Assembly: GCA_944332435.1 (NCBI GenBank)
Contig: CALVJW010000001.1
Location: 80,370-113,721, forward strand
Origin: an uncultured Bacilli bacterium
GTDB taxonomy: Bacteria; Bacillota_I; Bacilli_A; RF39; UBA660
Length of the DNA stretch: 33,352 nt
Direction of reading: 5' to 3'
The position numbers and the translations under genes are program-made. Shown piece by piece: positions 5,557-19,286 of the stretch (position 1 is the stretch's first letter; every line of letters starts with the position of its first letter). Under the pieces are notes generated by a model that saw only the letters and a program-made list of their open reading frames with translations, was not told the origin of the DNA and did not search any database.

Positions 5557-5584
5557 TTTCAAAATCCTATTTTTATAGTATAAT
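5557..5584 (+). promoter_or_regulatory. Promoter of the two-component operon
   Basis: TTTCAA (5557-5562), a 16-base spacer and TATAAT (5579-5584). A GTCAC (5552-5556) touches the -35 region and resembles the repeated GTCAC sites at 11744-11779. An ATG at 5583 overlaps the -10 and is not the true start. Confidence 0.6.
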
Positions 5585-5600
5585 GGATGCAGGTGATAAC

Positions 5601-6296
5601 ATGAAAACAATTTTAATTGTTGAAGATGATGAAACAATTCGTACTGGGCTAAAATATTTTTTAGAAAAGGAAAATTTTCAAGTAATCGAAGCAAGTACAT
5701 GTAAAGAAGCGCTTTTAAAAGTTTCTAATTCTATTAATCTATTATTGCTTGATTTAGGATTACCAGATGGTGATGGATTTCTTTTATTTCAAAAAATCAT
5801 GGAAAAAAAGAAAATACCAACGATATTTTTAACGGCAGTAGATGAAGAAGTTTCGATTGTCCGAGGATTAGATATGGGAGCAGATGACTATATTACCAAG
5901 CCATTTAAAGTAAGGGAACTGTTATCGCGAATTAATAATGTACTTCGTAGATACCAACGTAGTCAGGAAGATAATATTATTCATCTTCATAACTTAACGA
6001 TTGATTTAAATGGTGCTAGGGTAAGAAAAAATAATGAAGATGTTTTTTTAACCGCATTAGAGTATAAAATTCTTTTAATCCTTGGGTTAAATCCTAATAA
6101 AGTATTTACAAGAGAACAAATTCTTGCAGATATTTGGGATACGAATGAAGCTTTTGTGAATGACAACACCTTAACCGTTTATATTAAAAGAATTAGAGAA
6201 AAGATTGAAGATGACCCTAACCACCCTAAAATTATTCTTACAGTAAGGGGTCTTGGCTATAAAGTGAGTGATCAAAGTGAAAAAGTTACTGATTAG
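5601..6296 (+). CDS. OmpR/PhoB-family response regulator
   Basis: A 231-residue DNA-binding regulator. The receiver domain (about 1-118) has the acidic pair E8-D9-D10, phospho-acceptor D51 in LLLLDLGLPDGDG, T78 and K100 in ITKPF. The C-terminal winged-helix domain (about 130-228) has LTALEYKILLIL, the recognition-helix region NTLTVYIKRIREKI and the wing VRGLGYKV. The ATG at 5601 follows AGGTGA (5591-5596); an in-frame ATG at 5583 is part of the promoter -10. It overlaps the kinase gene, so the two are translationally coupled. Position next to two FtsX-type ABC exporters suggests that it controls them, as BceR/VraR-like systems do; candidate sites are noted at 11744-11779. The stimulus is unknown. 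Confidence 0.95.
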   Translation: MKTILIVEDDETIRTGLKYFLEKENFQVIEASTCKEALLKVSNSINLLLLDLGLPDGDGFLLFQKIMEKKKIPTIFLTAVDEEVSIVRGLDMGADDYITKPFKVRELLSRINNVLRRYQRSQEDNIIHLHNLTIDLNGARVRKNNEDVFLTALEYKILLILGLNPNKVFTREQILADIWDTNEAFVNDNTLTVYIKRIREKIEDDPNHPKIILTVRGLGYKVSDQSEKVTD

Positions 6297-7684: not shown

Positions 7685-8392
7685 ATGAAAGCACTTTATC
7701 AAATGAATCATGTTAGTAAAATTTATCAAAATAGTGCAACGAAACTCCATGCATTAAATGATATCTCATTGGAACTAAAACAAGGAGAAATCATTGTTAT
7801 TTTGGGACCTAGTGGAAGTGGGAAATCAACTTTATTAAATCTATTATCAGGAATTGATCATCCAACGAGTGGTGAAATTTTATTTCATGGTACTGATTTA
7901 GGAAAAATGAGTGATAAAGAGTTAACTTTATATCGAAGAAAAGAATTAGGCTTTATTTTTCAAAGTTATAATTTAGTATCCAATCTTACTGTATTAGAAA
8001 ATATTGAAATGGGCGCTAATTTAAGTACTGAGCCACTTGCTATGTCAGAAATTTTATCAGTAGTAGGATTACAAAAAGAAAAAAATAAGTATCCTTATCA
8101 GCTTTCTGGTGGGCAAATGCAAAGAGTAAGTATTGCAAGAGCGCTTGTGAAAAATCCGAAAGTATTATTTTGTGATGAACCAACGGGCGCTTTAGATGAA
8201 AAAACAGGAAAAAAAGTGTTAAAATCTTTGCAAGAAATTAACCAAAAATTTCATACAACAATGATTATTGTAACACATAATCCAAGCATTGCTTTGATGG
8301 CTCATACTGTAATTCGAATGAATAGTGGTCATATCATGGAAATTACACACAATAAAAATGTTGTAGATGCCTTAGAATTGAGGTGGGCATAA
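7685..8392 (+). CDS. ABC transporter ATPase, MacB/LolD/BceA type (unit 1, ATPase A)
   Basis: A 235-residue cytoplasmic ATPase. Walker A GPSGSGKST (41-49), Q-loop FIFQSYNL (90-97), signature LSGGQMQR (140-147), Walker B VLFCDEPTGALD (160-171) and H-loop VTHNPS. This ATPase subfamily works with FtsX-type permeases in exporting or extracting lipids, peptides and antimicrobials. The ATG at 7685 follows GGTGGTGG; an in-frame ATG at 7643 lies upstream of the -10 box and is rejected. The stop overlaps the permease start by one base, so the two are coupled. A second, different ATPase follows the same permease. Confidence 0.95.
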   Translation: MKALYQMNHVSKIYQNSATKLHALNDISLELKQGEIIVILGPSGSGKSTLLNLLSGIDHPTSGEILFHGTDLGKMSDKELTLYRRKELGFIFQSYNLVSNLTVLENIEMGANLSTEPLAMSEILSVVGLQKEKNKYPYQLSGGQMQRVSIARALVKNPKVLFCDEPTGALDEKTGKKVLKSLQEINQKFHTTMIIVTHNPSIALMAHTVIRMNSGHIMEITHNKNVVDALELRWA

Positions 8393-11016
8393 TGGATTTA
8401 TTAATTTTAAATGCGATAAAAGGGTTAAAAAAGAAAAAAATTCAAATGCTTGGTATTGTTGTTATGGTTTTATTATCAACTGGAATCTATACAACGATGA
8501 ATAGTGCGATTGATCGATTGGAAGAACGATATTATCATTATTTAGATCAGAATAAAGTAGAACATATCAGTTTAGAACCAACGATTGATTATACGAAAGA
8601 TATTAGTCCTTCTTTTCTTACTTCACTTAGAAGTACAAAATTAAAAGAAGTTACTGCTGAAGAGGATGCATTATTAAATTTATATCAGATGTGTTTAGTG
8701 CAACCAAATGAAGCTTGTAATCAAGAATTTTATATTGCTTTAGAACAAGTATTTAGAAAATATGATGTTTATGAAGAATTAGGAAATCAAAAATTAGATG
8801 TTCTTGCTAAGAAGTATGATTTTACTTATGAGTTACAAAAAACAAAGGTAGTAACCGACCAAAATTATACGATTAACGTGATGCCTTATGAAGAACATAA
8901 GAAAATGAATTTACCACACTTAGTTGAGGGGAATTTTCCTAAAAAAGCGGGTGAAATTACGGTATTACCAAAATTTGCTGAAAAGAATCATTTAGAAATT
9001 GGTGATACTTATAAAATAAATGGAAAGCAATATAAAATCGTTGGATATGCATATGCGAGCGATTATATTTATCCAATGCTTTCTATGAATCAACCGATTT
9101 TTGATGAAAAGTATAATAATATCGTTTTTATGCTATCTTCAGATTATGAACTATTTGATGGTATTAATAATGATACTTATGGTATTCTATTAAATGGCAA
9201 TTATGATCGTAAAAATAGAATTGCTAATGAACTTAGTCGTTCTTTAGAAGAAGAAAAGCAAGAAAAAACGCTTAGTGATGAAGAAATTCAAGCAGTGGTA
9301 GAAAAAGCTCAAGATACAAAAGATTCGATGCTACTGATTTCGACAATGCTAGAAAATGAAAAGGAAAACGTTCAAATTGGGATGAATACAATGGTACGTT
9401 TGTTGCGTACTGATGCAATTCAAATGGAATTTAAAGGAAATCGTACGTTTGCGGAAGCTTTCTTGTATTTATTATTAACGATATCTATTTTTATTATTTT
9501 AGTAATCACGAAAAAAAGAATTGATGATGAACGATTACAAATCGGAGTGTTAAAATCACTTGGATATAAACGTTATCAAATTGCAGCAAGCTATTTAGTA
9601 TATCCAATTCTTGGTTCGATTGTAGGTGGAATACTTGGATATTTCTTAGGAGTATTGCTTCATGAACCATTAACCGAATTATTTTTAAGTTATTATACAA
9701 TACCACTTGCTGGTTTCCGTTTAAATAGTAAATATTTTATCAATTCTCTTATGATTCCACTGATGTTACTTTCTACGCTAAGTTTTGCTATCGCATACTT
9801 TATGCTTCGTAAAAAACCACTTGCTTTATTAAAAGAAGGTAGTAATTTAAAAATTAATCGATTAAGTAAAATCGTGACCTATCTTACAAAACCACTTTCT
9901 TTTGAATCTAAATTCCGTTATAAATTAGCATCTCGTTCTGTAGGAAAACTTTTAATTGTAACGTTAACATCTTTTTGTACAGGACTATTAATCGTCTTAA
10001 TTTTAATCGGTTCTAATTTGTTTGAACATTTAATTGATCAATCATTTGAAAATTTAGATTATAAATATATGGTTAGTTATAAGACCATTCAATATAGTGA
10101 TACGACGGAAGATGATCTTATTTTAACAAGTACAATGGATATCAAGAAAATATTAGATTCTAATAAAAAAGAAAAGAAATTAGAAGATGATGAATATAGT
10201 ATTAACTTAACAGGTGTTGATTCTTATACGAAATATATTCAAGTAAAAGATGAAGAAGAGAAGAATTTAATTCCACTCTTATATGAAGAAGATCATTCAA
10301 TTATTATTAATAAAAATGTAGCAGAATATATGAAAGTGGAAGTAGGAGATACGGTTGTTTTAGATAATAATGGAAATGATGTATCGTTTAAGATTGTTGG
10401 AATTCAAGATGACTATTTAGGAACGACAACGTATATTAGTCGTGAATTATTAAGTAAAACATTAGGATACGAAGGCAATGCCTATAGTATGAAATATACG
10501 GTAAATAAGAATTATAGTAATATCAAATCATTGGATAGTGAAGAAGTAAATGCGATTTCTAGTGTATTTAGTATTGATGACTTAAGAAAAAATATTGAAA
10601 CACAAATGAGCCGTATGGATGCGGTAATCTATATTGTTATTTTCTTTGCATCATTTATGGTATTAATTATTATTTCTGTTATTGCGAATATCGTAGTCGA
10701 AGAAAATAAAAAGACCATTTCTTTAATGAAAGTTATGGGATATCAAAATAAAGAAATCAGTTCCATTGTATTAAATATTTATACACCATTTATTGTTGTA
10801 GCGTATTTATTATCCATCCCATGTATGATTGCCTTGTTAAAATGGATTATTACGTTATTAATTGGTGATACAAAAATGGTAATTCCAATTACATTATCAC
10901 CAACAATGGCACTTCTTGGCTTACTAGGGTTATTAATTGCGTACTATCTTGCAATTGCCTTATCAAGAAGAGTATTAAATAAAGTGCCCCTTGCAGTCGC
11001 GCTAAAAAGAGAGTAG
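8392..11016 (+). CDS. Large FtsX-type ABC transporter permease (unit 1)
   Basis: An 874-residue membrane subunit. Helix 1 is at about 19-37, followed by a large outer domain to about 348 and a first FtsX domain (about 351-480) with the coupling segment GVLKSLGYKRYQIAASY. Another helix lies at about 521-542, then a second outer domain, then a second FtsX domain (about 743-874) with SLMKVMGYQNKEIS. Two FtsX repeats with two outer domains give a MacB-like duplicated permease, not the single-domain BceB plan. AGGTGGG overlaps the ATPase stop and gives the ATG at 8392. It is translationally coupled to both neighbours. The substrate cannot be read from sequence; envelope-targeting peptides or lipoproteins are typical. 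No frame disruption was seen. Confidence 0.92.
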   Translation: MDLLILNAIKGLKKKKIQMLGIVVMVLLSTGIYTTMNSAIDRLEERYYHYLDQNKVEHISLEPTIDYTKDISPSFLTSLRSTKLKEVTAEEDALLNLYQMCLVQPNEACNQEFYIALEQVFRKYDVYEELGNQKLDVLAKKYDFTYELQKTKVVTDQNYTINVMPYEEHKKMNLPHLVEGNFPKKAGEITVLPKFAEKNHLEIGDTYKINGKQYKIVGYAYASDYIYPMLSMNQPIFDEKYNNIVFMLSSDYELFDGINNDTYGILLNGNYDRKNRIANELSRSLEEEKQEKTLSDEEIQAVVEKAQDTKDSMLLISTMLENEKENVQIGMNTMVRLLRTDAIQMEFKGNRTFAEAFLYLLLTISIFIILVITKKRIDDERLQIGVLKSLGYKRYQIAASYLVYPILGSIVGGILGYFLGVLLHEPLTELFLSYYTIPLAGFRLNSKYFINSLMIPLMLLSTLSFAIAYFMLRKKPLALLKEGSNLKINRLSKIVTYLTKPLSFESKFRYKLASRSVGKLLIVTLTSFCTGLLIVLILIGSNLFEHLIDQSFENLDYKYMVSYKTIQYSDTTEDDLILTSTMDIKKILDSNKKEKKLEDDEYSINLTGVDSYTKYIQVKDEEEKNLIPLLYEEDHSIIINKNVAEYMKVEVGDTVVLDNNGNDVSFKIVGIQDDYLGTTTYISRELLSKTLGYEGNAYSMKYTVNKNYSNIKSLDSEEVNAISSVFSIDDLRKNIETQMSRMDAVIYIVIFFASFMVLIIISVIANIVVEENKKTISLMKVMGYQNKEISSIVLNIYTPFIVVAYLLSIPCMIALLKWIITLLIGDTKMVIPITLSPTMALLGLLGLLIAYYLAIALSRRVLNKVPLAVALKRE

Positions 11017-11023
11017 GTGAATT

Positions 11024-11728
11024 ATGAATTTAATTGAAATGAAACATGTATATAAAACCTATCATGCGGGAGATGTTCCTACTCATGCCTTAAATAATAT
11101 TGATCTAACCATAAAAAAAGGTGAAGTTGTTGTCATTTTAGGTGCGAGTGGGAGTGGAAAAACAACCTTGCTTAATTGTCTATCTGGATTAGATACTGTA
11201 ACAAAAGGAACCATTTTATTTGAAGGAAAAGATATTACTCATATGAGTGATCGAAAAATTACGAACTTTAGAAAGAAATATCTTGGTTTTATCTTTCAAA
11301 CTTATAATTTACTAGAACATCTAAATGTATATGAAAATGTGTTAGTAGGGGCAAAATTAGGAAAACAAAAAGTTGATATTGAGGAAATTATTGATACCGT
11401 AGGACTTACACCACATAAAAATAAATACATGCATGAATTATCGGGAGGAGAGCAACAACGGGTTAGTATTGCAAGAGCGCTTGCCAAAAAACCAGAAGTG
11501 ATGTTTTGTGATGAGCCAACAGGAGCACTTGATGAAGAAACAGGGAAAATTGTATTAGAATCAATTATTGAAGCGAATGAAAAATTAGGGACAACGATGA
11601 TTATCATTACTCATAATCCAGGAATTGCAGAAATTGGTGATCGGGTACTACGAATGAATAGTGGAAGGATTGTTGAAGAAATAAAAAATAAAAAGAGGAC
11701 CAGACCAAAAGATATTACTTGGGGATAA
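11024..11728 (+). CDS. ABC transporter ATPase, MacB/LolD/BceA type (unit 1, ATPase B)
   Basis: A 234-residue ATPase, clearly a paralogue of the one at 7685. Walker A is GASGSGKTT (about 41-49), the signature LSGGEQQRVSIARAL, Walker B VMFCDEPTGALDEETG and H-loop ITHNPG. Both unit-1 ATPases end with a shared RMNSGxI motif. TAGGTGA lies just upstream of the ATG, seven bases after the permease stop. There is no second permease in this unit, so either this ATPase pairs with ATPase A as a heterodimer on the same permease, or it serves another permease. Its last codons form the left arm of the terminator. Confidence 0.95.
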   Translation: MNLIEMKHVYKTYHAGDVPTHALNNIDLTIKKGEVVVILGASGSGKTTLLNCLSGLDTVTKGTILFEGKDITHMSDRKITNFRKKYLGFIFQTYNLLEHLNVYENVLVGAKLGKQKVDIEEIIDTVGLTPHKNKYMHELSGGEQQRVSIARALAKKPEVMFCDEPTGALDEETGKIVLESIIEANEKLGTTMIIITHNPGIAEIGDRVLRMNSGRIVEEIKNKKRTRPKDITWG

Positions 11729-11744
11729 AAGGGCCTCTTTTTTT
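11691..11744 (+). terminator. Terminator of ABC unit 1
   Basis: AAAAGAGG (11691-11698) pairs with CCTCTTTT (11734-11741), with a long loop holding a minor CCAA/TTGG stem; seven T end the structure. Confidence 0.75.
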
Positions 11745-11779
11745 GTGACGGAATTGTCACACTTTTTGTCACGAAAAAG
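11744..11779 (+). promoter_or_regulatory. Candidate operator: repeated GTGAC/GTCAC sites
   Basis: TGTGAC-GGAATT-GTCACA (11744-11761) is a perfect 6-bp inverted repeat. A second TTGTCAC (11766-11772) repeats the first (11754-11760) at a 12-base step, within CTTTTT-GTCACG-AAAAAG (11762-11779), itself an inverted repeat. The second TTGTCA is also the -35. The layout suits binding by an OmpR-type regulator, probably the one at 5601, whose own promoter has one GTCAC. Confidence 0.5.
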
Positions 11780-11794
11780 TAATATAATTATATT
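11766..11794 (+). promoter_or_regulatory. Promoter of ABC unit 2
   Basis: TTGTCA (11766-11771), a 17-base spacer and TATATT (11789-11794), each 5 of 6 matches to consensus. An overlapping TATAAT at 11794-11799 lacks a suitable -35. Confidence 0.6.
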
Positions 11795-11818
11795 ATAATG
11801 AAATTGTGAGGCGATAAT

Positions 11819-11929
11819 ATGAAAAAAAAGAAACAACTATCATTAGAAACAATTTTTACAATTAGTATTTCTATTTTTATCATTGGATTATTAATCATAA
11901 GCGAATTTTTATGTTATGCGCCGAAATAA
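11819..11929 (+). CDS. 36-residue single-span membrane peptide
   Basis: A short gene beginning ATG AAA AAA AAG AAA and ending TAA. The product starts MKKKKQLSLETIFTI, is followed by a hydrophobic helix (about residues 12-27, Ile/Phe-rich) and ends SEFLCYAPK. It carries a TGAGG site (11807-11811) seven bases before the ATG, lies directly behind a promoter, and ends 15 bases before the next ATPase, so it is probably the first gene of that operon. The positive N-terminus predicts the basic end inside and a short tail with one Cys outside. I do not recognise it. It could be a small regulatory subunit of the transporter or sensor kinase, or a leader peptide whose translation affects the downstream genes. 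A protein-coding role is supported by start, spacing and hydrophobic pattern only. Confidence 0.6.
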   Translation: MKKKKQLSLETIFTISISIFIIGLLIISEFLCYAPK

Positions 11930-11944
11930 AGAGAGGAGTTCAAT

Positions 11945-12625
11945 ATGGAGTTGTTAAAAGTAGAACATCTATGTAAAACATATGGAACAGGGAACACTTT
12001 AGTGAAAGCTTTAGATGATGTGAGTTTTTCTGTAAATAAAGGTGAATTTGTCGCCATTGTTGGTGCTAGTGGAAGTGGAAAGTCAACGTTACTTCATATA
12101 CTAGGAGCAGTAGATAAACCAACAAGCGGAACAGTTTACATTGGAGGAGAAAATATTGGATTATTAGACGAAAACGCTTTAGCTATCTTCCGTCGTAGAG
12201 AAGTAGGCCTTATCTATCAATTTTATAATTTAATTCCAATTTTAAACGTTGAGGAAAATATGAGCCTACCAATTTTATTAGATCATAAAACAGTTGATCA
12301 GACGTATTTAAATGAACTTATTGATATTTTAGGATTACGGTCACGTTTAAAACATTTACCAAATGAATTATCAGGGGGGCAACAACAAAGGGTATCCATT
12401 GGAAGAGCGTTGATGAATCATCCAAGTTTACTACTATGTGATGAACCAACGGGAAATTTAGATAGTAAATCAGGGGCAGAAATCATTAATTTATTGAAAT
12501 TATCCAATCAAAAATATAAACAGACGATTATTATGATTACTCATGATCATGAACTTGCGATGCAGGCAGATCGTATTATTACCATTGATGATGGAAAAAT
12601 TATTCGTGATGAAGTGGTGAAATAA
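11945..12625 (+). CDS. ABC transporter ATPase, MacB/LolD/BceA type (unit 2)
   Basis: A 226-residue ATPase: Walker A GASGSGKST (about 39-47), LIYQFYNLIP in the Q-loop region, signature LSGGQQQRVSIGRAL, Walker B LLLCDEPTGNLDSKSG and H-loop ITHDHE. It is closer to the general LolD/MacB pattern (GNLD, THDHE) than the two unit-1 ATPases (GALD, THNP), so it is not a recent copy of them. GAGAGGAG precedes the ATG. The gene ends one base before the unit-2 permease, so this is a coupled ATPase-permease pair. Confidence 0.95.
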   Translation: MELLKVEHLCKTYGTGNTLVKALDDVSFSVNKGEFVAIVGASGSGKSTLLHILGAVDKPTSGTVYIGGENIGLLDENALAIFRRREVGLIYQFYNLIPILNVEENMSLPILLDHKTVDQTYLNELIDILGLRSRLKHLPNELSGGQQQRVSIGRALMNHPSLLLCDEPTGNLDSKSGAEIINLLKLSNQKYKQTIIMITHDHELAMQADRIITIDDGKIIRDEVVK

Positions 12626-12626
12626 T

Positions 12627-15209
12627 ATGAAGTTATTAAATCGATTAACAAGAAAACATCTTCTTATGAATAAAAGAAGAACCATTGTTACTATTATTGG
12701 GGTTATTTTATCATGTGCCCTCATGATGGGAATTGGCTTACTATTTTCGAGTGTTTATCAGAATATTGAAGATTCCATCATCATGTATTCTGGTAAATAT
12801 CATGTTCAGTTAAAAGATATTCACAAAGAAGATTTGGCTACGATAAAACAAAATGTGTATGTAAAATCAGTTGATTATAAAGAACTAATTAGTTTTGCAA
12901 AACCATCTTTCAATGGAAAAGTACAACATGATGATCTTTTTTCTATCAATACGGCCAATGATTCGTATTTAAAAACAGTCACTTTAGAAGATGGAAAATT
13001 TCCTAATTCAGATAAGGAAATATTGCTACCAAGTTATTTAAAAGATTATTATGACCAAAAATATCAAATTGGTGATGAAATTACATTTCAATTTGGCAAA
13101 CGTTATCAAAAGGAAGAAGAAATTTTTGATGATGTGTTATTTGAGAAAGAGACATGGAAGCCACTTGAAACAAAGACATATAAAATTGTAGGATTTTATA
13201 ATGACATAAAATATGGAATCAATACTTTTTCGCCATGCTTTACGAAAGATCAAGGAAGTAAACTAGATCATATTTCCACTTGGATTACTTATCGTTCTAA
13301 TAGAAAAATTCATGAGAAAACTGAATCAGTCATCAGTCATCTTGATACTAAATTAGATGATTCTAAAATTCTATATCATGAAGATTTATTAAGCCTTTAT
13401 GGACAAAGTAAATATAGTAATTACAATAAAGTGATGATTCAAATTGCTATTATTATTTTATCACTTGTATCAATCGCATGTATTATTGTTATTTATAATT
13501 CATTTCAAATATCAGTAATGGAACGAAAAAAACAGTTTGGTTTATTTTCTAGTATTGGAGCAACAACGAAACAATTACGATACACTGTTTTTTATGAAGC
13601 ATTTTTAATTGCAATCATTGCCATTCCAATCGGTATCATTGGTGCCTATTTAGGAATTGATGTGGTAATTCACTTTGTGAACCATTTCTTACCAGAAGAA
13701 TTTAATCCAGCTCTTAAATTATCACTGGATCCAACCTTTGTTTTCATCCCATTAGTATTTATTGTACTTGTTATTTTCTTATCCGCATGGTTGCCAGCTA
13801 GAAGAGCCAGTAAAATAACACCAATTCAAGCAATTAGACAAAACGATGATATTAAAATTAAGGGAAAGAAAATCAAAACGAATAAGTTCGTAGAAAAAAT
13901 ATTTGGCGTAGAAGGAACGATTGCTTTAAAAAATATTAAACGCAATAAGAAAAAATATCGTATTACGATTATTTCCTTATTTATTAGTATAGTGTTATTT
14001 ATTTCTTTTTCTGGAATATTAAAATATGGAGTAAAAAGTACAGAAGGCATTTTACAAATGGTAGATTATGATATTAGTATTTTTCTTCAGGATCAGTCAA
14101 AAGAAAAAGTAACTGATATTACAAATAAAATCATTCATCATAGTGAGGTAGAAGAAAGTAACGTAATGCAATCATTTGTATATGAAACTCCAATATTAGA
14201 AAAAGAAGTATATGAGGAAGCATATGATAAAGTATTTTCTGAATATTTAACTAGTGATAATTCTGGTAATCTTGATTATGATGAAATTCTTTTATATACT
14301 GTGTCAGAAAATTGTTATGAAGAGTTGAAAAATGAAGTTGGTCAAACAAAAGATATTCCAATTATAATTAATCATACTACAGCAGAATATGTAGATCGTA
14401 AAGGAAACAAAAAAGTTTATTCTGGACCAATTTTTAAAGAAGATAAAATAACATCGCTTCCACTTTATTATAAATTAATTGGTGATGAAAGTGAAAATAA
14501 ATCAAAGGTAGTTGATAATATTGCCTTTACTACGACTGTTCCATTTGGATTGAAAGGTCTTGCTCGTCAAGGACAAAAAATCATGATTGTAAATGAAACT
14601 TTATTTCACGAGTTAAAACAATTAGCAGTTTCCAATGATGAAGGGTATGCGGAACAATATAGTCAGGAAATTGTTTTAAAAGCAAAAGATGTTGAAAAAC
14701 TAGGTCGTGCATTAGAAAAAATGGAAGAGGATAAAAAAATTGAAACTTTTGCATTAAACAATGTAATAGAAGGACAAAAAGTACAACGTAATATTATGCT
14801 TGTTGCAAAAATTCTATTATATGGATTTATTAGTTTAGTTACCTTAATTGGAATTACCAGTGTCTTTAATACTATCAATACTTTTTTGATGTTACGAAAA
14901 AAAGAATTTGCTATGCTTCGTAGTATTGGGCTTACGCCACAAGGATTTAAGAAAATACTTTGGTTTGAAAGTCTATTCTTTGTTCTAAAAGCACTATTAT
15001 ATGCTTTACCAGTATCATTTGGTATCTTAGTTTTAATTGATTATGTATTAGGTAGTGCAATGACTTTTAATGAAATGTTAATACCATGGCAAGAGATTTT
15101 TATCGCAATTATTTTCTCATTTATGATTGTTTTAATGACCACTATTTATTCAACTAGAAAGATGCGAAGAGAAAACATATTAGAAGCAATTCGTGAAGAA
15201 AATATTTAA
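12627..15209 (+). CDS. Large FtsX-type ABC transporter permease (unit 2)
   Basis: An 860-residue membrane subunit with the same duplicated plan as unit 1. Helix 1 is at about 20-43, an outer domain runs to about 268, and the first FtsX domain (about 270-400) has RKKQFGLFSSIGATTKQL. A helix at about 446-464 is followed by a second outer domain (about 465-720) and a second FtsX domain (about 722-857) with RKKEFAMLRSIGLTPQGF and the closing segment ILEAIREENI. The ATG follows a weak GTGGTGA in the ATPase end, so translation is coupled. Sequence is clearly diverged from the unit-1 permease. The proposed role is export or removal of envelope-active compounds, from the two-component system and family precedent; substrate unknown. 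Confidence 0.92.
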   Translation: MKLLNRLTRKHLLMNKRRTIVTIIGVILSCALMMGIGLLFSSVYQNIEDSIIMYSGKYHVQLKDIHKEDLATIKQNVYVKSVDYKELISFAKPSFNGKVQHDDLFSINTANDSYLKTVTLEDGKFPNSDKEILLPSYLKDYYDQKYQIGDEITFQFGKRYQKEEEIFDDVLFEKETWKPLETKTYKIVGFYNDIKYGINTFSPCFTKDQGSKLDHISTWITYRSNRKIHEKTESVISHLDTKLDDSKILYHEDLLSLYGQSKYSNYNKVMIQIAIIILSLVSIACIIVIYNSFQISVMERKKQFGLFSSIGATTKQLRYTVFYEAFLIAIIAIPIGIIGAYLGIDVVIHFVNHFLPEEFNPALKLSLDPTFVFIPLVFIVLVIFLSAWLPARRASKITPIQAIRQNDDIKIKGKKIKTNKFVEKIFGVEGTIALKNIKRNKKKYRITIISLFISIVLFISFSGILKYGVKSTEGILQMVDYDISIFLQDQSKEKVTDITNKIIHHSEVEESNVMQSFVYETPILEKEVYEEAYDKVFSEYLTSDNSGNLDYDEILLYTVSENCYEELKNEVGQTKDIPIIINHTTAEYVDRKGNKKVYSGPIFKEDKITSLPLYYKLIGDESENKSKVVDNIAFTTTVPFGLKGLARQGQKIMIVNETLFHELKQLAVSNDEGYAEQYSQEIVLKAKDVEKLGRALEKMEEDKKIETFALNNVIEGQKVQRNIMLVAKILLYGFISLVTLIGITSVFNTINTFLMLRKKEFAMLRSIGLTPQGFKKILWFESLFFVLKALLYALPVSFGILVLIDYVLGSAMTFNEMLIPWQEIFIAIIFSFMIVLMTTIYSTRKMRRENILEAIREENI

Positions 15210-15297: not shown

Positions 15298-16737
15298 ATG
15301 GATATTGCAACATTATTAGTAGAATTAGAGCGATATATCGCAAGTGCAGAAGAATTGTCACTTGTGAAAGTGGCATTTCAAATTGCCAGTTTAGCACATC
15401 AAAAGCAACGGCGTGAAAGTGGAGAACCATATATTACTCATCCTTTAGAAGTTGCTCATATTCTAGTTTCTATGCATCAAGATACTGATACAATTTGTGC
15501 GGGCTTATTACACGATGTGATTGAAGATACCGATTACACGAAAGAATCTTTATTGAAAGAGTTGCAATATTTGCACGGTTATTCTTTTTCGGATGAGCGT
15601 TATCAAAATATTATTCATTTAGTAGATGGAGTAACAAAAGTTAAACAAGAAAATTATGATACGAAAATTATTAAGGCAACATTAGAAGATGAAAGAATTA
15701 TTATGATAAAATTAGCCGATCGACTACATAATATGCGAACATTACAATTTAAAAAAGATAAAGCAAAGAGAAAGAAAATTGCCTTAAAAACTTTTAATCA
15801 ATTTGTTCCTTGGGCCAAATATTTAGGCGCTTATAAAATTAAATATGAATTAGAAGATTTATGTTTTCAAATATTATCGCCAGATATTTATCAAAAATTA
15901 AAACAATTTCAATCGGTTATTTATGAAACAGCAATATTGGACTTAAATCAGAGAATGAAAGAATTAGACCATGTTTTTTTAGAAAAACAAATTTATTATT
16001 ATCCTAAAGTAAAAGATGTTTATGGCATTTATAAATCGGGATATCCACCACTAGATACTGATCAAAAGAAACAGATTACAGAAGAAATGCTTACAGACGA
16101 GACCGTATTAAAAAATGTTTATCAAAACTATAAAACGATTCCAGAATTAGTACAATTAAAAATCATTGTTGATACCAAAGAAGATTGTTATGAAATCGGT
16201 GATTACTTATCAAAACAAAATGCGTTTTCATTACTACCAAATACTTATTATGACTATATTCAATATCCAAAAAAGAATATGTATCAATCACTTGATTTTA
16301 TCTTAAATGAACTTTGGTTACCAATTCAATATCAAATCAGAACCAATCAAATGGATTTAAAAAATTGTTATGGTAATTTATATCATGAAGATACGAAAAA
16401 TAAAATTGATTTTGTAAGCCGTTTACAAAAATTAATTGATGCCTGTTCGAATGATGCTGAAATATTAAACTGTTTTAAAAAATTAGCAACAACAAAAATT
16501 TGTGTGACGACATTATCAGGAGAGAAAATTTTAATGGATCCTGGGAATACTGTTACTGATTTTGCAGCACGCATTGCATCTACTTTACCAGAACGGATGA
16601 ACCAAGCATATGTAAACGGGGTAGCAGTTAGAAAAGACTATGTATTAGAAGATGGAGATGTTGTTGTAATTAAAACAAAAGAATTAGAATCAACCAAGAA
16701 TATCAATGTTGGGTATCAAAAACAAAAAGTGGACTAG
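15298..16737 (+). CDS. RelA/SpoT homologue with intact (p)ppGpp hydrolase and degenerate synthetase domain
   Basis: A 479-residue RSH paralogue. The HD hydrolase domain (about 1-190) keeps the expected residues: R39, H48 in GEPYITHP, H72-D73 and E76-D77 in LLHDVIEDT, and D141/N145 in KLADRLHNMRTL. The synthetase region (about 225-360) keeps the fold signature (YPKKNMYQSLDF, QYQIRT) but not the active site. Compared with the complete Rel at 29558, GRAKSIYSIYKK has become PKVKDVYGIYKS, the YDLYALR segment is PELVQLK, and the Glu of FEIQIRT is Gln (Q344). A TGS domain follows (about 399-462); the zinc-finger/CC and ACT regions are absent. It probably breaks down (p)ppGpp but cannot make it (inference). 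The ATG at 15298 follows AGGTGGTGA; a GTG at 15286 overlaps that site. Confidence 0.88.
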   Translation: MDIATLLVELERYIASAEELSLVKVAFQIASLAHQKQRRESGEPYITHPLEVAHILVSMHQDTDTICAGLLHDVIEDTDYTKESLLKELQYLHGYSFSDERYQNIIHLVDGVTKVKQENYDTKIIKATLEDERIIMIKLADRLHNMRTLQFKKDKAKRKKIALKTFNQFVPWAKYLGAYKIKYELEDLCFQILSPDIYQKLKQFQSVIYETAILDLNQRMKELDHVFLEKQIYYYPKVKDVYGIYKSGYPPLDTDQKKQITEEMLTDETVLKNVYQNYKTIPELVQLKIIVDTKEDCYEIGDYLSKQNAFSLLPNTYYDYIQYPKKNMYQSLDFILNELWLPIQYQIRTNQMDLKNCYGNLYHEDTKNKIDFVSRLQKLIDACSNDAEILNCFKKLATTKICVTTLSGEKILMDPGNTVTDFAARIASTLPERMNQAYVNGVAVRKDYVLEDGDVVVIKTKELESTKNINVGYQKQKVD

Positions 16738-17907: not shown

Positions 17908-18600
17908 ATGGATCAAGAAAAAATTGGAAAATTAATCAAGGAGATAAGAAAGAAGCACCATCTTACCCAAAATGATTTCGCGAGCAAATATGGTGTTACG
18001 TATCAAGCTGTTTCCAAATGGGAAAATGGAAAAAATATTCCAGATATATCGATATTAAAACAAATTGCCAAAGATTTTGACATTGATATTGACGCTTTAC
18101 TAGAAGGAGAATCGAAGAAGAAAAAAAATAATCATGTTTTGATTATTCTAATTGCAATCATCCTAATGATTCTTATTAGCTTCTTTTCTTATATTTTGTT
18201 TCATAAAGATAACTTTGAATTTAAAACAATGAAAACAAGCTGTGATAATTTTAATATTTCTGGAAGTTTATCTTATAATCAAAAAAAATCTTCTATTTAT
18301 ATATCGAATATTGAATATTGTGGAAAAGAAAAAGATATTTCATATCAAAAAATTGATTGTGCATTATATGAGAAAAACCAAAATATAGTGAAAAAAATTA
18401 GTGATTGCAGTGCACAAAAAAATCAAAATATTACATTAGATAATTATTTAAAAAATATTGAGTTTGTCGTTGATGATTATGAAGCCTCTTGTAAAAAATT
18501 TGAAGGGAACGAATTATATATTCAAATCGAAGCACAATTGAATGAAGAAAAAATAGTTACTTATCGTATTCCTATTTCTTTCAATCAGTGTCAGAGCTAA
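17908..18600 (+). CDS. Membrane-anchored XRE-family regulator with six-cysteine outer domain
   Basis: A 230-residue protein. Residues about 8-64 are a Cro/C1-type helix-turn-helix (LTQNDFASKYGVTYQAVSKW; NIPDISIL). A basic linker (KKKKNN) leads to one membrane helix (about 76-98). The remaining 130 residues should lie outside the membrane and hold six Cys (112, 138, 151, 167, 195, 228) and no recognised enzyme motif. An even number of Cys confined to the outer domain suggests disulfides (inference). The ATG follows GGAAGTGAAGT. A membrane-anchored thioredoxin-like protein is encoded next, which may be a functional partner. The family looks like the XRE-plus-transmembrane regulators of Firmicutes; target genes and signal are unknown. 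Confidence 0.85.
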   Translation: MDQEKIGKLIKEIRKKHHLTQNDFASKYGVTYQAVSKWENGKNIPDISILKQIAKDFDIDIDALLEGESKKKKNNHVLIILIAIILMILISFFSYILFHKDNFEFKTMKTSCDNFNISGSLSYNQKKSSIYISNIEYCGKEKDISYQKIDCALYEKNQNIVKKISDCSAQKNQNITLDNYLKNIEFVVDDYEASCKKFEGNELYIQIEAQLNEEKIVTYRIPISFNQCQS

Positions 18601-18637
18601 CTCAACTTCAGGTTTAGTTCATTCAACTTAGAAGTTA

Positions 18638-18666
18638 TTGCTTTCATTTTTTTCATCATTTAAAAT
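18638..18666 (+). promoter_or_regulatory. Possible promoter of the thioredoxin-like gene
   Basis: TTGCTT (18638-18643), a 17-base spacer and TAAAAT (18661-18666), 18 bases before the start codon. The gene could also be read from the upstream regulator; the gap is only 83 bases. Confidence 0.4.
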
Positions 18667-18683
18667 GAGTTTGAGGTGAAAGA

Positions 18684-19286
18684 ATGAAAAAGAGAACATT
18701 TATTTTTATTTTTATAGTTAGTGTCGTAATTATTTTTAGTATACTTGGAATAGCTATTACGAAAAGGCAAAACAAAATGACTGACAGTGAAAAATTTAAA
18801 AAAGAATATACTGAGGTATCCAGTGATAATGTATTTGTATATAGAGAAATTGAAGATATTATTTCTATTTTAGAAAATGGTACCGGAATTGTTTATTTAG
18901 GTTTTCCTGAATGTCCCTGGTGCCAAGCTTATGTGGATTATTTAAATACAGAAGCGAAAAATAAGGGAGTAGAGAAAATCTATTATTATAATATTAAAGA
19001 GGATAGGGAAAATAATACTCGTGAATATCAAAAAATAGTATCCATTTTAAAAGATTATCTTCCTTTTTCAGAAGAAGGTAAAAAAAGACTATATGTACCA
19101 GCAGTAATCGCGGTAAAACAGGGAAAAATCGTTGGTTTTGATGATGAGACATCACTAGATACAAAGGGATATAAATCACCAAAAGAATATTGGGAAAATG
19201 AAGATTTAGATGGATTAAAGAAAAAGTTTTCAAAAATGTTTCAAAGTATAAAATTAAATTATTGTACGACAGATTGTAATAAATAA
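18684..19286 (+). CDS. Membrane-anchored thioredoxin-like protein with CPWC motif
   Basis: A 200-residue protein with an N-terminal signal anchor (basic MKKR, helix about 5-25) and an outer thioredoxin-fold domain. The active-site-like motif is FPECPWCQAY (C77, C80) after the strand GIVYLGF; the cis-Pro equivalent is P139 in RLYVPAVIAV. There is an inserted helical region (about 100-130), and the C-terminus carries a further C194-x3-C198 pair. The layout recalls PedC/bacteriocin-accessory-type thioredoxins and extracytoplasmic oxidoreductases. Likely role: making or reducing disulfides outside the membrane. Preceded by a good GAGGTGAAAG and followed by a strong terminator. Its neighbour is a regulator with six external cysteines. 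Confidence 0.8.
   Translation: MKKRTFIFIFIVSVVIIFSILGIAITKRQNKMTDSEKFKKEYTEVSSDNVFVYREIEDIISILENGTGIVYLGFPECPWCQAYVDYLNTEAKNKGVEKIYYYNIKEDRENNTREYQKIVSILKDYLPFSEEGKKRLYVPAVIAVKQGKIVGFDDETSLDTKGYKSPKEYWENEDLDGLKKKFSKMFQSIKLNYCTTDCNK

Follow-up and report, generated by a model that had tools for sequence, protein, structure and literature searches.

A membrane-bound XRE regulator and its predicted operator next to extracytoplasmic thiol and sulfur genes of uncultured Bacilli

We analyzed a stretch of 33,352 nucleotides (the window) from an uncultured Bacilli bacterium, in which the gene for a membrane-bound XRE regulator (the sensor) is followed by the gene for an anchored thioredoxin-fold protein (TRX1). 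This sensor is probably a one-component membrane regulator that directly controls genes for extracytoplasmic thiol or sulfur proteins, with DNA binding and activation as predicted and a disulfide signal as inferred components of this reading. Within the family, the sensor gene is linked to such genes, an operator element phased to a promoter lies between them, exact copies of this element are restricted to sensor-bearing genomes, and its letters co-vary with the DNA-binding domain of the sensor.

Domain organization of the sensor

The sensor gene (positions 17908..18600; + strand, as all features of the gene pair) encodes a protein of 230 aa. Residues 10-63 match HTH_3 (PF01381) with an E value of 1.5e-16 and 60.6 bits against a curated cut-off of 23, which places the protein among the XRE (Cro/CI-type) regulators. 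The AlphaFold2 model (pLDDT 84.4, pTM 0.52) was calculated from 70 sequences, i.e. the window sensor and 69 of 76 non-redundant relatives (alignment A3), while a separate sensor alignment (A1) was made without G044 and G003. The model consists of a five-helix HTH domain (residues 3-66; 17914..18105), one membrane helix that coincides with a hydrophobic stretch (residues 76-98; 18133..18201), and an outer domain with nine predicted strands (about residues 101-230; 18208..18597). The cysteines of the window sensor are found at positions 112, 138, 151, 167, 195, and 228, and all six are located beyond the membrane helix. According to this predicted topology, a DNA-binding domain, a membrane helix, and an outer domain are combined in a single chain, as in transmembrane one-component regulators. 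The open reading frame, the HTH_3 match, the modelled helix, and the cysteine positions all agree, in support of the original prediction of an HTH regulator that has a single membrane helix and carries its cysteines in an outer domain.

Other assignments of the protein were less informative. The match to the RstR repressor profile (NF041951) reached 58 bits, below its curated cut-off of 80. Pfam searches with the outer domains of the sensors gave scattered matches only, most of them for a single member, and the matches from PDB fold searches with the whole sensor were filled by the HTH part.

Distribution and gene neighborhood

Of 59 genomes from the family of the window, 29 contained full-length relatives of the sensor, and none of the matches listed for 39 other genomes extended past residue 186. 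With a profile of the outer domain, the sensor was found in 78 of 193 family genomes. Sensor-bearing named records are titled uncultured Bacilli, Mollicutes, Tenericutes, Erysipelotrichaceae etc., and are metagenome bins according to their titles. We classified 102 sensor loci by their next gene. Named records supplied 79 of them (taken from the best 80 of 217) and whole genomes the other 23, with six loci judged common to both sets counted once. We removed one XRE paralogue each from L068, L077, and L085, which had grouped with the sensors, and the sensor counts do not include G003 (L067/L165), which has a stop inside the sensor frame.

A thiol/sulfur-type gene was found directly downstream of the sensor in 85 of these 102 loci, the named part of which again comes from the best 80 of 217. 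The largest group (31 loci) encodes a lipoprotein with an invariant cysteine (RHOD, the Cys-lipoprotein partner), followed by a one- or two-domain thioredoxin (TRX2). TRX1 with its CPWC motif is the next gene in 29 loci, i.e. the window and 28 others, and an arylsulfotransferase (ASST) in 23. The latter was identified by a Pfam match with an E value of 1e-101 for one member and, at the sensor loci in ten whole genomes, by a genome-wide Pfam search. TRX2 alone follows in two loci, another gene in 13, a convergent gene in two, and two loci stop at a contig end. Twelve of the 13 'other' loci have an unrelated next gene, and they carry no operator (see below) except for one weak case. The remaining one, L189 (taken to be G038), encodes a small CMSC thioredoxin, a CcdA-like protein, a lipoprotein, and TRX2, the first two being named by eye. 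In the G038 locus L069, the sensor gene is followed by that of a small CMSC thioredoxin, a gene that is partly masked, and those for a CcdA-like membrane protein, the lipoprotein, and TRX2; the operator is present twice.

This arrangement is not a matter of chance adjacency between a sensor and a thioredoxin gene: among other XRE-like genes of the same loci, such a partner was the next gene in only one of 24 cases (seven of the 24 have no same-strand neighbor), compared to 85 of 102 for the sensor. General synteny can likewise be dismissed as the reason for the pairing, because the upstream genes fall into 56 clusters among 76 loci. In comparison, the next gene falls into 13 clusters among 78 loci, and the third gene downstream into 53 among 64. 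On a quick tree of 100 sensors, in which L189 was labelled TRX1 and 48 of 97 inner branches were weak, the partner type requires 19 changes. Partner classes, neighbor counts, and tree changes together suggest that the sensor keeps one kind of partner but swaps its identity. The proposed co-occurrence of the sensor and thioredoxin genes in relatives therefore holds, with TRX1 directly next to the sensor in 29 of the 102 loci. What also stands of the original idea of a sensor-thioredoxin pair is the thiol/sulfur context at the outer surface; the thioredoxin itself is not a fixed partner, as its place is taken elsewhere by the arylsulfotransferase or by the Cys-lipoprotein plus a thioredoxin.

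Predicted operator and promoter between the two genes

The gap behind the sensor gene contains a family element of the form CTCAACYnnnnGTTGAG, which is followed, usually after 5-6 bp, by TCAACYnnnnn[GT]TTATTG. In the window, the predicted operator site 1, CTCAACTTCAGGTTTAG (18601..18617), has one mismatch to the family palindrome CTCAACN5GTTGAG. The predicted site 2, TCAACTTAGAAGTTATTG (18623..18640), overlaps the -35 hexamer of the thioredoxin promoter, TTGCTT (18638..18643), which was predicted from the sequence and the family alignment. This hexamer is separated by a 17 bp spacer from the predicted -10 hexamer, TAAAAT (18661..18666). In an alignment of 45 sequences anchored at site 2, only one of 27 offsets tried gave good scores for a -10 hexamer (TAAAAT, TAAACT), indicating that the TTG at the end of site 2 represents the -35 region, with a spacer of 17 bp. 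A looser -10 match was found at this offset in 39 of 49 sequences, one base further in seven, and one base nearer in two. The -35 region appears to be reduced to the TTG itself (G in 40 of 49 sequences), with no consensus after it.

To measure how regularly the element occurs, we cross-tested operator models, with training and test loci coming from different sets; the two sets contain related species and are hence not fully independent. The count also covered loci in which the stop codon of the sensor gene lies inside site 1, by including upstream sequence. Of the 85 partner loci, 78 contained an operator above the 99% shuffle level (74 of the 76 with a gap of more than 30 bp, four of the nine with a shorter gap), compared to two of the 13 'other' loci. 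These two are L189 and, weakly and below the best shuffle, L088. The two long-gap loci that were missed, L086 and L089, belong to a group with an altered operator (class II). No operator copy was detected upstream of the sensor gene in any of 80 loci.

Relative to the predicted promoter of the partner gene, simple arithmetic puts the site centers at about -42.5 and -64/-65. These positions and the reduction of the -35 region to TTG point to activation. The CI protein of phage lambda, an HTH_3-type regulator, binds at the promoter PRM to tandem 17-bp operators (OR1/OR2), which are about two helical turns apart, with the proximal one at about -42. The window operator resembles PRM in its tandem sites and in the proximal position of about -42 from the predicted promoter. 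The sensor differs from CI in being membrane-bound and in its operator letters, and the two have no known kinship beyond the HTH fold. The overlap of site 2 with the -35 hexamer would also suit a repressor, i.e. the same regulator acting at the same sites, blocking RNA polymerase from the -35 region until an outer signal relieves it. We consider this unlikely, since both sites lie at or upstream of -35, at the distance found for CI at PRM, and a promoter with a -35 region of only TTG looks activator-dependent.

Genome-wide searches for the operator

We searched the exact class I pattern in 98 whole genomes, 59 of the family and 39 others. The family genomes contained 18 sites. Thirteen are located directly behind a sensor gene (one at a contig end) and one further along the same operon in G038. 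The remaining four lie on contigs different from that of the sensor and immediately precede RHOD (G024, G040, G042) or a CPWC thioredoxin gene (G044). In the 39 non-family genomes, the pattern had five matches, none of them before a partner gene, and the reversed pattern, used as a control, matched once in all 98 genomes.

Extension to 193 family genomes (134 of them new) yielded 13 further class I sites, all of which directly precede ASST, RHOD, or TRX1. Three of these (G184, G187, G200) represent DNA already seen as L131, L208, and L159, so that a fair test is provided by the other ten. All ten precede a partner gene, including three (G125, G167, G183) on other contigs than the sensor. In total, 31 class I sites were found; the next gene is visible for 30 of them and is a partner in all 30 cases (29 by profile, G038 by eye). 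The class II operator (TAAAC/GTTTA) occurs in ten of the 193 family genomes, in all ten between sensor and partner, and five of these cases were previously unseen. For both classes together, all 15 places that were still unseen when the patterns were defined precede partner genes, three of them on contigs without the sensor. Exact sites are present in 35 of the 193 family genomes, all of which are among the 78 sensor-bearing ones (lists compared by eye; P 5e-17, a value that is optimistic because of kinship, with the site-bearing genomes spanning 22 genera for class I and seven for class II).

The copies on other contigs also bear on the possibility that the element is no operator at all, but acts in the RNA, as a terminator or attenuator downstream of the sensor gene. 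Site 1 is indeed palindromic and often followed by a T run. But the half-site letters are conserved beyond what mere pairing would demand, the T run is absent in several loci, including the window, and site 2 is phased to the -10 hexamer. Moreover, the element precedes partner genes that have no sensor upstream in G024, G040, G042, G044, G125, G167, and G183. On the basis of these copies, we rejected the terminator reading as highly improbable.

In the genome that contains the window, which is 66% complete (943 kb assembled), no other match to CTCAACN5GTTGAG with at most one mismatch was found. With two mismatches, 12 places matched, close to the level of the reversed-pattern control (13 vs 9). 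This genome (G000) has two ASST genes away from the sensor, on contigs C11 and C19; within the locus of the former (L101), there is no match to site 1 on the strand of the ASST gene, and we therefore do not count this copy as a target of the sensor.

Co-variation between HTH domain and operator

Two residues of the HTH domain, Tyr32 and Asn43 in the window sensor, are replaced in relatives with the altered operator. All 65 sensors with a class I operator have Asn or Ser at position 43, and all five with a class II operator have Gly; another 29 sensors are without a strict match to either pattern. Gly43 was also found at all ten class II loci of the genome search. At position 32, Tyr or Phe predominates in class I sensors, and Ala, Ser, or Asn in those of class II. 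An exception is G042, which combines Ala32 with Asn43 and has its class I site on another contig. This co-variation is the best evidence that the sensor itself would bind the predicted sites.

The anchored thioredoxin-fold protein

TRX1 of the window (18684..19286), the predicted target gene, encodes a protein of 200 aa with a hydrophobic anchor at its N-terminus. It contains CPWC at residues 77-80 (18912..18923) and CTTDC at residues 194-198 (19263..19277), just as the original prediction had described an adjacent anchored thioredoxin with CPWC and an extra C-terminal CxxxC. Both tail cysteines (194 and 198 in the window) are invariant in 12 of 12 aligned sequences. They are spaced as CxxxC in two of these sequences, the window protein and its nearest relative; the remaining ten have CxxC. 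The AlphaFold2 model (12 sequences) has a pLDDT of 83.7, with the poorly modelled tail below 50. Foldseek matched it to thioredoxins with a probability of 1.00 and a best E value of 2.4e-3, i.e. weakly but consistently and with none at E <= 0.001. With CPWC and these matches, TRX1 has a thioredoxin fold with a CxxC motif. The second-ranking match is 1zma, a bacteriocin transport accessory protein, and there is a weak similarity to PedC/BrcD (TIGR01295; 27.1 bits, E 3.1e-6). Membership in this family was rejected given its curated cut-off of 120, and, unlike for PedC/BrcD, no bacteriocin gene was noticed next to TRX1.

One TRX1 relative (L099:5993-6586, genome G012) has neither CPWC nor the tail pair; the G012 sensor adjoins an arylsulfotransferase gene. 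The joint loss is a hint that the two Cys pairs may work together.

The thioredoxin is best read as a regulated output, an exchangeable target gene, because it is exchanged among the downstream genes behind the same predicted operator. The original prediction had assigned it a different role, that of setting the oxidation state of the sensor cysteines within a dedicated redox pair. Such a relay could coexist with gene regulation as a feedback, and it would fit the adjacency of the two genes in the window and 28 other loci, the location of both proteins outside the membrane, and the tail as a second conserved Cys pair. We nevertheless regard it as doubtful. In 54 of 102 loci, the sensor is found beside ASST or the Cys-lipoprotein instead, and the thioredoxin gene itself carries the operator; being an exchangeable target, it makes a weaker candidate for a signal donor. 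In addition, CadC of E. coli was not greatly affected when single Dsb proteins were missing (PMC3096576).

Cysteines of the outer domain

Conservation of the cysteines was counted on the whole-genome set only, since the named loci had been found with patterns that included Cys112, Cys138, and Cys151. This set comprises 28 sensors found without a Cys-based query (one of them a fragment, G032, and G044 included), and shifts of three columns were allowed. Of the 28 sensors, 21 have both Cys112 and Cys138, seven have neither, and none has just one of them (p 8e-7), as would be expected of a disulfide pair. Cys151 was found in 26, Cys195 in 27, and Cys228 in 26 sensors, but Cys167 in only ten. Hence, the cysteine signature of the sensor consists of five mostly conserved positions and one optional one, with 112 and 138 kept or lost jointly. 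Conserved outer cysteines with at least one co-varying pair (112/138) make it a candidate extracytoplasmic disulfide sensor. The 'exactly six cysteines' of the original prediction hold for the window protein, but these counts rule them out as a family signature. Similarly, conservation of the outer cysteines in relatives is borne out for most positions (151, 195, 228), but not for Cys167, nor for the pair 112/138 in the seven sensors without it.

In most relatives, an odd number of cysteines is left, so that one could be a switch thiol, a member of a triad, or a metal ligand. The latter leads to another possible, though less favored, reading, in which the sensor perceives a ligand such as a phenolic compound, or a soft metal via Cys151, Cys195, and Cys228, and its cysteines are structural or metal-binding. 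The retention of these three residues in 26-27 of 28 sensors is compatible with a Cys3 site, and ASST acts on phenolic sulfates (PMC7810732). However, no metal-handling gene was noticed among the partners, and their common theme is thiol chemistry.

The G044 sensor lacks Cys151, Cys167, Cys195, and Cys228, and yet an operator precedes a CPWC thioredoxin gene in its genome. This cysteine loss speaks for a different input, at least in the lineage of G044. The G044 sensor gene (L091:4247-4921) adjoins an aminoacyl-tRNA editing gene, and the class I operator before the CPWC thioredoxin is located on another contig, beside a distant ASST relative.

Proposed mechanism and relation to known systems

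We propose that the cytoplasmic XRE domain binds as dimers to the two tandem sites, one upstream of the -35 region of the next gene and one overlapping it. The outer cysteine domain would read an extracytoplasmic condition, most likely the thiol/disulfide state, and pass the signal on through the single membrane helix. The regulator would thus act as a dimeric activator that combines a CadC/ToxR-like topology with a promoter geometry like that of lambda CI at PRM. As its output, we envisage a very small set of regulated genes for extracytoplasmic thiol or sulfur proteins, comprising those for the anchored CPWC thioredoxin in the window genome and, in relatives, ASST, the Cys-lipoprotein plus a thioredoxin, or a small thioredoxin plus a CcdA-like protein.

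The thiol/disulfide state is the likely signal, which we infer from the common denominator of the partners and the cysteine-rich sensor. Against this speak the odd number of five conserved cysteines and the lipoprotein, which has no significant family match. Arylsulfotransferase itself is not a redox enzyme. It still fits a thiol regulon to the extent that the enzyme of E. coli depends on a disulfide and its gene lies together with those for DsbL and DsbI; PMC7810732 describes this astA-dsbL-dsbI arrangement, an arylsulfotransferase gene beside those for thiol-disulfide proteins, for uropathogenic E. coli. By comparison, the constant neighbor in our loci is the membrane regulator, and the thioredoxins were DsbL-like in no test made.

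ToxR, CadC, and TcpP resemble the sensor in combining a DNA-binding domain, one membrane helix, and an outer sensor domain in a single chain. In ToxR, an outer disulfide reportedly tunes activity. Membrane-bound one-component regulators with a tuning disulfide are already known, and CadC is another example (PMC3096576). The sensor differs from ToxR and CadC by its XRE/HTH_3 instead of a winged-helix domain, its five mostly conserved outer cysteines, and its thiol/sulfur targets. Consistently, Trans_reg_C (PF00486), the domain of the ToxR/CadC family, did not match the sensor at E <= 1. Another membrane-bound one-component regulator of the Bacillota is BcrR, described from Enterococcus in connection with bacitracin.

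Like the sensor, BcrR has an XRE-like DNA-binding domain. It differs in having several membrane helices and no known outer Cys domain, and in sensing bacitracin. In the literature searched, which mostly does not extend to subscription papers, we found neither an XRE-type regulator with such an outer domain, operator, and thiol regulon nor a report that joins RF39 with arylsulfotransferase. A word search of a survey of transmembrane transcription regulators (PMC10269533) gave no match for Xre, HTH_3, cysteine, or thioredoxin.

With slightly less than even confidence, we suggest that these components could form an undescribed single-protein envelope thiol-stress response of gut Bacilli. It would consist of a removable Cys112-Cys138 disulfide, a Cys151/195/228 switch, an XRE activator, a lambda-like tandem operator, and an effector gene repeatedly exchanged by the lineages. 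Our analysis predicts an operator at the level of single letters, the regulon behind it, and a regulator that may govern thiol chemistry at the outer surface of uncultured gut bacteria. It also ties arylsulfotransferase to a thiol-related regulon and gives context to an unannotated lipoprotein family. Experiments on these predictions would require purified protein and reporters in laboratory strains, so that the source organism itself need not be grown.

Lipoprotein family and genomic context

The lipoprotein (A5 family, e.g. L208:6493-7158) shows 71% mean column identity over 18 sequences, with the invariant cysteine in a MCGGGGYAGM-like motif. By eye, this motif makes it look rhodanese-like, an impression without statistical support: Pfam gave no match (one member), NCBIfam nothing near a cut-off, and the PDB rhodanese 8w14 an E value of 1.9. 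VKOR was found in none of 60 genomes searched (37 of the family, including the window genome, and 23 of other families in the class), and a DsbD/CcdA domain in eight, four of them over the cut-off.

Elsewhere in the window, positions 15298-16737 encode a short RelA/SpoT-like protein (479 aa from ATG) with HD, weak RelA_SpoT, and TGS domains. At 7685-15209, a row of genes encodes three ABC ATPases and two large FtsX-type permeases; a response regulator gene (5583-6296) lies further upstream.
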